DNA of 64,000 nucleotides from positions 62,001 to 126,000 of the forward strand of contig PCBK01000003.1 in the NCBI GenBank assembly GCA_002731275.1, read 5' to 3'. Shown here piece after piece: positions 43,697 through 47,222 of the stretch. Numbering within the stretch: position 1 is the stretch's first letter; the number at the start of each line of letters is the position of its first letter. The translations under genes and the position numbers were made by a program. The notes under the pieces are model-generated. The model saw only the letters and a program-made list of their open reading frames with translations. It had not been told where the DNA came from and searched no databases. Source of the DNA: Deltaproteobacteria bacterium. Its GTDB lineage: Bacteria; Myxococcota_C; UBA6777.

Positions 43697-44098
43697 ATCG
43701 AACCTCCAAACAGCACACTCATGTAAGCTTCTACAGACGAAACTTTCGAGGGTAAACAGGTTTTTTTGTCTATTTTCAACACATCATACACAATCCACAC
43801 ACAAACGCAAGCCATCCCATCGTGGAACAAATGACACCTTCGAACAATCAAGTACGCTATGCTGTACAGGACAGAACGACACAAAGGACAGAAAAAGTCG
43901 TCTCCCAACACTTGACCTCTGTGGAACATTCGATTATCAAAGAAGAAAAGAAAAAGATTGCTCAAAAAAGCAGCCGACAACCGTCTGGTTTGTACAGACC
44001 ATCATCGATTCTATCAACCGACTCTACCAGGAGTACGTTGTACGAAGCCGGCACCATGCCACCCACAAAAGAAGACTGGCAACAGTAGGAGTTTACTG
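43697..44098. other. Divergent intergenic region
   Basis: Separates the small exported gene (minus) from the large MopE/VWA lipoprotein gene (plus). It is A-rich. An open frame at 43822-44088 has no ribosome-binding site or recognisable similarity, so it is not called. No strong promoter hexamers seen. Confidence 0.3.
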
Positions 44099-46753
44099 AT
44101 GAATTCACTTTTCCAGCGTTTCACACGTGCCTTGATGCTATTGGCTGTATTCAGCCTTGGCGGCGGGTCTTTGTCTGGTTGTGCAGGCGATCCGCCGCCA
44201 GTCTGTAGCAAAGACGCCGACTGCAAAGGGGATCGCATCTGCGAAAACCAAAAATGTGTCTCCCCAACGACCACAACAGATGGTGGTGGTAACAAAGAAG
44301 CCACCCCCACAGAGAAGGTCGACCCCAAAGACGACAACTCCAAAACAGAAGACACCACACCCGACGCAGGACCAGAGCCGACAACGCCCGATGTTGGTCC
44401 CGAACCCACAAAGCCCGATGTTGGTCCCGAACCCACACAAGAGCCCACAACACCAGATGTCGGACCAGAGCCAACACAAGAACCGACAACGCCCGATGTT
44501 GGTCCCGAGCCCACACAAGAACCTACCGTCCCAGAGGTCGGTCCAGAGCCTTCAGGTCCAGAACCCCAACCCGATACACCTGCAGGCTGTACAAATGGCG
44601 CGACCAAAGCCTGCTACACTGGACCTGCAGGAACGTCCGGCAAAGGTATTTGTAAGGCTGGTACACAGACCTGTACAAACGGCGCATGGAGCCCATGTAC
44701 CGGTCAAGTTATACCAGCCACAGAAGTATGTGATGGAAAAGACAACGACTGCGATGGCAGAATCGACATGGATCCTGCAACAACTTCAAACCTCTCCCAA
44801 CCATGCTACACAGGCCCAGTGGGTACTGTACGTGTGGGGATTTGCCAAGAGGGAATGCAGTTTTGTATCAACGGCGCGTGGCAAGCGTGCTCCGGCGAAG
44901 TCACCCCCGCAGCCAAAGACATCTGCACGAACAACAAAGATGATAACTGTGATGGCAAAATAAACGATGGATGTTCTGCTCCAGTGTGCACCAATGGAGA
45001 CCAACAAGTTTGCTACACAGGTCCTCTTGCAACACTCAACAAGGGTGCCTGTCGCTCCGGCTTGAAGAACTGTGTGAATGGCCAATGGACTGCATGCGCA
45101 GGCGAAACAACTCCTACAACAGAGACGTGTGATGGGAAAGACAACGACTGTGACGGCATGGTCGACGAGAGCCTCGTCAAAACCTGTTACACCGGTCCTC
45201 CTGGAACACAACTAAAAGGTATCTGCAAATCAGGAACACAATCCTGTACAGGCGGCACATGGACGTCCTGTCTTGGCCAAGTCACCCCACAAGTTGAGAG
45301 CTGCAACAACAAAGATGACGACTGTGATGGACAGGTAGACAACAACATCCCTGCAGCGAACTGTACTTTGGGTAGCAAACGTGGTGCATGTCGTACAGGG
45401 AAACAGTCCTGTATCAACGGCGCATACGCTTGTGTCCAGGTCAACCAACCCACTGCAGAGACCTGTAACCGTATCGATGATGACTGCGACGGACAAACAG
45501 ATGAAGGCCTCACTTGCGCCCCCACTTGCATCTACTTCTCACCAACTTCCTACGACTTCGGCGCTTCACAGCAAACTTGTGCAACACCAACATACAGATT
45601 TGCCTTGCGAAATACATGCTCATCTCCACAGGCTGGCATGACAGTGTATGATGCCAAATTTAGCTCAAATCCGTCCCAATTCATCTTTCCAGTCATCGGA
45701 ACGGATTCTAGCGGAAATCCTATAACAGGAAACCCTGTTGCAAAAAGAAATGCGGTAATTCCTCGCTTTGGGTACATGTACTTTGATGTACAATTCAAAC
45801 CCAATAGAACAGGAAAAGCCAATGAAGATTTGGTTGTTCGCTTGACAAGCAATACCGGCCCCACAATATCAGTAAAATTGTCAGGTGAAGGCACAACCAA
45901 AAACAGCACAACGCAAACGGAATCCTTTACAGCACCTGTTGCCAAGAAGGTCGATCTCTTGTTTGTGATCGACAACTCCTGCTCCATGAGTGATGAACAA
46001 AACGCGCTGGGAACTGCTTTCAAGGCATTCTCGGCCCGCGCAAAAACACTCCAAGCGGACTATCAAATCGGTGTTATCACAACAGACACGTCAACAAACA
46101 AAGGCTACGCAACAGGTGAGCTGAGAGGCAATCCCAAGATTATCGTCCCCACAACCCCCAACCTCGACGCAACCTTTGCCAATAATATCAAACAAGGCAC
46201 CTCAGGTAGCCCCCAAGAGAAAGGTTTGGAGTCCTCCAAAGCAGCTCTCACGGCACCTCTCATCACGACAGGTGCCAACAAAGGCTTCTTGCGCCAGAAC
46301 GCACAACTCTCCATCGTCTTTATCTCCGATGAAGACGACAATGGAAACGACCTCATCGCGCCTTACATCACGTTCTTTAAAAGCGTCAAAGGTAACGACA
46401 GCAGCCTGATCAAAGCATCTGCGCTCGGTCCTATCAGCGGTACACGTTACAAACAAGTTGTCCAGGCACTTAACGGCCTTTACACACAATTGCCACAACC
46501 TGTGCAGGTGACGATCCTCGAAACCTTCATGAAAAACCTAGCCGATCTGACCATGAACCGTGCGCTGTTCACATTGAAAGGTGCCGCAGATCCAGCGACC
46601 ATCTCCGTGAAAGTCAACAACGTCGCCGTCGCGAAAAGTACAACCAATGGCTGGTCCTACAATACAACAACACGCAGCATCACCTTCCATGGAACGGCCA
46701 TCCCCGCAGCCAACGCCAAAATAGACGTCAGCTACAAAACAGGTTGCCCCTGA
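44099..46753 (+). CDS. Large lipoprotein with five MopE-type modules and a VWA domain
   Basis: 884 aa from ATG 44099 (TAGGAGTTTACTG upstream). Signal peptide with lipobox ('LSGC'), then a Cys-rich 'VCSKDADCKGDRICENQKCV' motif and a long Thr/Pro/Glu stalk of 'GPEPTQEPTTPDV' repeats. Five tandem Cys-rich modules come next, each ending in an acidic calcium-loop-like motif: DNDCDGRID, DDNCDGKIND, DNDCDGMVDE, DDDCDGQVDN, DDDCDGQTDE. Then an Ig-like 'FSPTSYDFGASQ...VKLSGEGT' domain and a von Willebrand A domain with the MIDAS-like 'VDLLFVIDNSCSMSDEQ'. Probably a surface adhesin or matrix-binding protein. Ends 40 bp before a strong terminator. Confidence 0.92.
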   Translation: MNSLFQRFTRALMLLAVFSLGGGSLSGCAGDPPPVCSKDADCKGDRICENQKCVSPTTTTDGGGNKEATPTEKVDPKDDNSKTEDTTPDAGPEPTTPDVGPEPTKPDVGPEPTQEPTTPDVGPEPTQEPTTPDVGPEPTQEPTVPEVGPEPSGPEPQPDTPAGCTNGATKACYTGPAGTSGKGICKAGTQTCTNGAWSPCTGQVIPATEVCDGKDNDCDGRIDMDPATTSNLSQPCYTGPVGTVRVGICQEGMQFCINGAWQACSGEVTPAAKDICTNNKDDNCDGKINDGCSAPVCTNGDQQVCYTGPLATLNKGACRSGLKNCVNGQWTACAGETTPTTETCDGKDNDCDGMVDESLVKTCYTGPPGTQLKGICKSGTQSCTGGTWTSCLGQVTPQVESCNNKDDDCDGQVDNNIPAANCTLGSKRGACRTGKQSCINGAYACVQVNQPTAETCNRIDDDCDGQTDEGLTCAPTCIYFSPTSYDFGASQQTCATPTYRFALRNTCSSPQAGMTVYDAKFSSNPSQFIFPVIGTDSSGNPITGNPVAKRNAVIPRFGYMYFDVQFKPNRTGKANEDLVVRLTSNTGPTISVKLSGEGTTKNSTTQTESFTAPVAKKVDLLFVIDNSCSMSDEQNALGTAFKAFSARAKTLQADYQIGVITTDTSTNKGYATGELRGNPKIIVPTTPNLDATFANNIKQGTSGSPQEKGLESSKAALTAPLITTGANKGFLRQNAQLSIVFISDEDDNGNDLIAPYITFFKSVKGNDSSLIKASALGPISGTRYKQVVQALNGLYTQLPQPVQVTILETFMKNLADLTMNRALFTLKGAADPATISVKVNNVAVAKSTTNGWSYNTTTRSITFHGTAIPAANAKIDVSYKTGCP

Positions 46754-46874: not shown

Positions 46875-47222
46875 TTACTCAAACAGAGACTCATAAAGCG
46901 CCTGATTGAATCCCACAACGAGGGTCTCGCCGAGGACAAGCGTAGGCGCCCGAAGGTTCCCGGTCCGTCCGAGCATGTGGGAGAGTAATGTCTCCTCATC
47001 GGGAGGCTCTTCTTGCATCGAGAAATCGACGCGCTTTTTGCCTTTGGCCACAATGATATGCTCAGCAGCAGAGGCGAGCTCAAGGGCCTTTTCTTTGCCC
47101 AACTTGAGCCGGGCGTTCACTTGTTCTTTGACGTCTGCGTTGGCTTGCGACAGGAACTCCTGCGCTTTTTTACAAGATGTTCAACCATTACGGTGGTAGT
47201 ACCACTCTACAGTCTGTGACAT
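46875..47222 (-). CDS. ArsC-like thioredoxin-fold selenoprotein (in-frame UGA read as selenocysteine)
   Basis: 115 aa if the TGA at 47183-47181 is read as Sec. From ATG 47222, seven bases after GGAG, the frame gives 'MSQTVEWYYHRNG-U-TSCKKAQEFL' and runs on without another stop to TAA 46877-46875. The Sec lies at residue 14 in a UxxC motif (U14-T-S-C17), exactly where ArsC/Spx-like thioredoxin-fold proteins carry their redox CxxC after the first beta strand. The C-terminus 'KGKKRVDFSMQEEPPDEETLL..MLGRTGNLRAPTLVLGETLVVGFNQALYESLF' is the family's cis-Pro part. A bSECIS-like stem-loop lies directly downstream of the TGA. An open frame beginning only at 47120 would lack the whole active site. Substrate unknown; probably a thiol-dependent redox enzyme. 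Confidence 0.9.
47147..47165 (-). promoter_or_regulatory. bSECIS-like stem-loop for selenocysteine insertion
   Basis: mRNA GCG-CAGG-AGUU-CCUG-u-CGC: seven paired bases, one bulged U on the 3' side, tetraloop AGUU with G at loop position 2. The loop begins 22 nt after the UGA, within the usual spacing of bacterial SECIS elements. It lies inside the coding sequence, as bacterial SECIS elements must. Confidence 0.75.

Follow-up and report, generated by a model that had tools for sequence, protein, structure and literature searches.

Selenoproteins of the ArsC family are already on record. A 2026 review (PMC13188914) lists an 'Arsenate reductase-like protein, UxxC', and NCBIfam models exactly such proteins as NF041106, 'ArsC family (seleno)protein' (model name ArsC_rel_Se_1). 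The 'ArsC-like' selenoproteins of Desulfotalea and Desulfuromonas (PMC1794560) resemble the protein described here in their ArsC-family name and in the use of Sec by deltaproteobacteria; likened by description alone, they may belong to the same subfamily or to a different one. The fold is also common to Spx of Bacillus subtilis (PDB 6ghb, 1z3e), whose CTSC motif aligns on the UTSC motif of our protein; in Spx, however, Cys takes the place of Sec and RRP that of the RAP seen in the NF041106 family, and the protein works as a regulator that binds RNA polymerase.

In the window, by which we mean the whole 64,000-nucleotide stretch of a Deltaproteobacteria contig analyzed here, a sequence-only reading had proposed a hidden, ArsC-like selenoprotein gene with a TGA inside its redox motif. 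The proposed frame was recovered exactly: from an ATG with a well-placed Shine-Dalgarno sequence it runs for 13 codons to the TGA, continues for 101 more codons and ends at a TAA (46877-46875), giving MSQTVEWYYHRNG-U-TSCKKAQEFL..., whose single TGA opens a UxxC motif (Table 1). As had also been predicted, an ORF listing made by standard rules contains only an 81-aa fragment with a GTG start (47120-46875). When compared with NF041106, the read-through protein scores 129.8 bits (5.8e-38, cut-off 85) and covers model positions 1-107 of 107, while the 81-aa fragment, at 78.2 bits, stays under the cut-off. This is the one NF041106-type gene in the genome, and it shows no substantive difference from the family, with Sec at the same column, the UxxC motif and a TGA common to other members. 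Because NF041106 models exactly such proteins and the review lists a UxxC selenoprotein, the gene is a further member of a selenoprotein family already in databases and is not new; the word "hidden" therefore holds for standard gene calling but not for the family. A motif screen of the open-frame TGAs in the window let 15 of 236 through crude filters, and by eye only the TGA studied here looks redox-protein-like, the other 14 appearing chance-like on motif alone.

Table 1. Coordinates of the features at the selenoprotein locus (positions in the window).
Feature	Position	Strand	Basis
Shine-Dalgarno AGGAG	47234-47230	minus	7 nt upstream of ATG 47222
Read-through CDS, 115 residues including Sec14, NF041106 family	47222-46875	minus	frame and profile match
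In-frame TGA, predicted to be read as Sec14 of UTSC motif	47183-47181	minus	frame and cross-genome conservation
Bacterial SECIS-type hairpin GCG-CAGG-[AGTT]-CCTG-T-CGC	47165-47147	minus	folding, covariation, published rules
Terminator-like symmetric hairpin, AAAAAGCCACGGCA GTCA TGCCGTGGCTTTTT	46825-46794		read directly from sequence

The simplest alternative is that the TGA is a true stop, in a pseudogene or through a sequencing error, so that only the 81-aa fragment or nothing is made, and the presence of a GTG-started frame downstream is what such a reading would expect. The distribution of the TGA in other genomes bears directly on this point. A family-model search of 386 genomes, with the genome of the window counted in, returned 19 NF041106 members over the cut-off, and 18 of these, the window's included, have one in-frame TGA at the same alignment column; two of them (L022 and L023) come from the window organism's own family, and the sole exception, L025, has Cys at that column. 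In a second collection, of named genome contigs, a scan with two peptide patterns, built from a six-sequence alignment and leaving out the Sec position, yielded at least 564 confirmed relatives (a scan of the same contigs with patterns from a single protein found no relatives, the patterns being too specific). Among the best 80 of these relatives, which are mainly from Planctomycetota but also from Krumholzibacteriia, Acidobacteria, KSB1, Myxococcota and others, 73 are UxxC, five are UxxS and two (L103 and L107) are Cys forms, so that 78 have TGA at the first motif position. Two pattern-scan relatives, L059 and L083, are apparently contigs G004 and G003, to whose family the window organism belongs. 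The same TGA is thus found in dozens of independently assembled genomes from several phyla, with protein conserved on both sides of it, so chance and a base-calling error can be discounted. Cys homologues aligning through the TGA exist as L025, L103 and L107. Given also that the fragment falls under the family cut-off and that the genome holds the whole Sec machinery (see below), a true stop is extremely improbable.

Some relatives depart from the common pattern. The five UxxS forms (L060, L061, L084, L096 and L112, from Krumholzibacteriia, Planctomycetota and Acidobacteria) keep the Sec codon and the hairpin. One MAG copy, L127, has an in-frame TAG five codons past the Sec TGA (UTSCI*AQEFLA), which probably reflects gene decay or an error in the sequence. 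Three ArsC/Spx-like genes that fall under the NF041106 cut-off (L041, L048 and L049) each have one in-frame TGA, and in L049, on the minus strand, it lies at the same motif (FTUTSCRNA); a second Sec-bearing ArsC-like subfamily may therefore exist.

The genome to which the window belongs (10.75 Mb in 200 contigs, completeness 94.65%) contains the full set of selA, selB, selC and selD that the sequence-only reading had proposed to look for. The scores for selA (550.5 bits, cut-off 268), selB (379.7, cut-off 242) and selD (364.9, cut-off 125) are all over the curated cut-offs, as is that of the tRNA-Sec (71.5 bits, gathering score 47), for which ARAGORN gives the anticodon tca (UCA). In four genomes of the same family the tRNA-Sec also exceeds the gathering score, in G002 only just (48.1 vs 47). 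The selD gene (L018, + strand) has an in-frame TGA of its own, CAG-U-AAK, where Sec-containing SelD proteins usually carry their Sec; the selenium supply of this cell therefore already needs UGA decoding.

Published rules for bacterial SECIS elements (PMC13188914) call for an apical loop of 3-9 nt with a G within its first two positions, a stem of 4-16 bp, a distance of 16-37 nt from the UGA and an MFE of at most -7.5. The window hairpin, whose stem has one bulged base, lies within these limits, with the apical loop AGUU at 22 nt from the UGA and an MFE of -10.3 for the enclosing 30 nt. Relatives have a hairpin at the same place, mostly with stems of 6-10 bp and a conserved GU in the loop, and between them the stem changes on both sides (for example GCGCAGG/CTTGCGC vs GTCTCCA/TGGAGAC). 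In two register groups 84.5% and 90.5% of the pairing cells are paired, well over the values for slid versions, and both sides have changed in four of seven pairs in one set and three of seven in the other; the covariation score was reached by 0 and 2 of 500 shuffles, counts that do not remove relatedness. In a synonymous-shuffle test of the energies, z was above -1 in 7 of the 18 Sec members tested. Cys forms have a weak hairpin or none: the stem scores of the three are 12, 5 and 8, whereas the 73 UxxC forms average 18.3. On the same ungapped measure the bulged stem of the window scores 12, which only equals the highest-scoring Cys form, and its energy is a modest gain over synonymous shuffles, 3.4% of which are as low (it is lower than 96.6%); for these reasons the cross-genome evidence for the hairpin is stronger than the window's own.

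Taken with the frame, the conservation and the Sec genes, these observations support the selenoprotein interpretation, and the locus is almost certainly an NF041106-group selenoprotein gene whose TGA is read as Sec. None of the three refuting outcomes named beforehand in the sequence-only reading was observed. We infer that UGA codon 14 would be decoded by SelB with tRNA-Sec(UCA), and that the hairpin directly downstream of it would direct the insertion.

A structure model of the product (pLDDT 93, pTM 0.85) has a thioredoxin fold, with Sec14 directly ahead of helix 15-26. The nearest solved structures found by Foldseek are Spx, YffB and ArsC-family proteins (E 2e-4 to 7e-3); a VIA structure comparison gave Z 8.0-8.7 and rmsd 2.6-5.0 over 87-94 residues, a Z that can reflect a common arrangement. 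The profile search concurs with the Spx/YffB match (E 1e-9), and in its alignment Sec14 and Cys17 fall on the first and second Cys, respectively, of the Spx CTSC switch, in agreement with the CxxC-type position that had been assigned to the TGA. The residues invariant among the 19 members include Y9, R11, Sec/Cys14, C17, G85, G88, R91, P93 and G104; C17 becomes Ser in five of the wider relatives.

This resemblance raises the question of whether the protein is a selenium-using arsenate reductase, that is, ArsC proper. The Pfam ArsC family PF03960 does match, weakly yet over its cut-off (28.5 bits, cut-off 24), and a selenoprotein family from the Sargasso Sea was given that name (PMC1088965). 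The closest profiles and folds, however, are those of Spx and YffB and not of catalytic arsenate reductases, and the invariant Arg stands two residues ahead of the conserved Pro, in LRAP, where Spx has RRP. Catalytic ArsC has RP at this position. By Pfam, the window neighbors comprise a GNAT acetyltransferase, a MopE-motif protein, TetR, OEP and SUKH proteins, with no evident arsenic or thiol-redox role among the adjoining genes; at the loci of eight relatives, where the starts of the ORFs were inspected, no evident common neighbor and no arsenic genes were noticed. Arsenate reduction is therefore without positive support, the name 'arsenate reductase' is unsupported beyond that of the superfamily, and we consider this function unlikely. 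The description "ArsC-like" stands for the fold, which is nearest to Spx/YffB, but is not evidence for the reaction.

The MopE-motif protein is encoded by the convergent + strand ORF 43958-46753, which is 931 aa long and combines a repeated TTPDVGPEPTQEP region with several putative metal-binding motifs of the MopE type (PF11617). The terminator-like hairpin lies between this gene and the selenoprotein gene; it is absent from the output of the consensus scan, probably because its A/T runs pair within the stem. A consensus promoter match at 47320-47292 was no better than shuffles, and an Rfam scan of the window at gathering thresholds gave no matches.

The exact alignment of Sec14-T-S-Cys17 on the Spx redox switch, and the fact that the best solved structural match is Spx, could also point to a selenium-based redox sensor that binds RNA polymerase. 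Nevertheless, the Spx/MgsR model TIGR01617 scores 26.2, far under its cut-off of 75.05, nothing points to binding of the RNA polymerase alpha subunit, and Sec is usually catalytic. Such a sensor is quite improbable, and so is the wider reading in which the family is an Spx-like Sec-Cys switch instead of a housekeeping oxidoreductase and its UxxS members may use a one-selenol mechanism.

From motif and fold, the product is probably a selenol-based thiol/disulfide oxidoreductase: a small thioredoxin-fold (Spx/YffB/ArsC-like) protein whose helix 1 is predicted to carry Sec14-x-x-Cys17 at its N-terminal end. It speaks against this role that Spx, the closest relative with a solved structure, regulates transcription and is not an enzyme. 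Toward its substrate, Sec14 would most likely act as the attacking selenolate and Cys17 as the resolving thiol, in a putative thiol/disulfide (or selenenyl-sulfide) exchange; the UxxS sequences imply that the resolving thiol may come from elsewhere.

These results confirm that a genuine selenoprotein gene, truncated by ordinary gene calling, can be recognized by reading the raw sequence. For the biology of selenium the gene leaves existing knowledge unchanged, adding one genome to a functionally uncharacterised family. That Cys forms are so rare in the sample (TGA in 18 of 19 members and in 78 of the best 80 relatives) hints at a selenium requirement that is difficult to bypass in this family, which is a small point, but a testable one.
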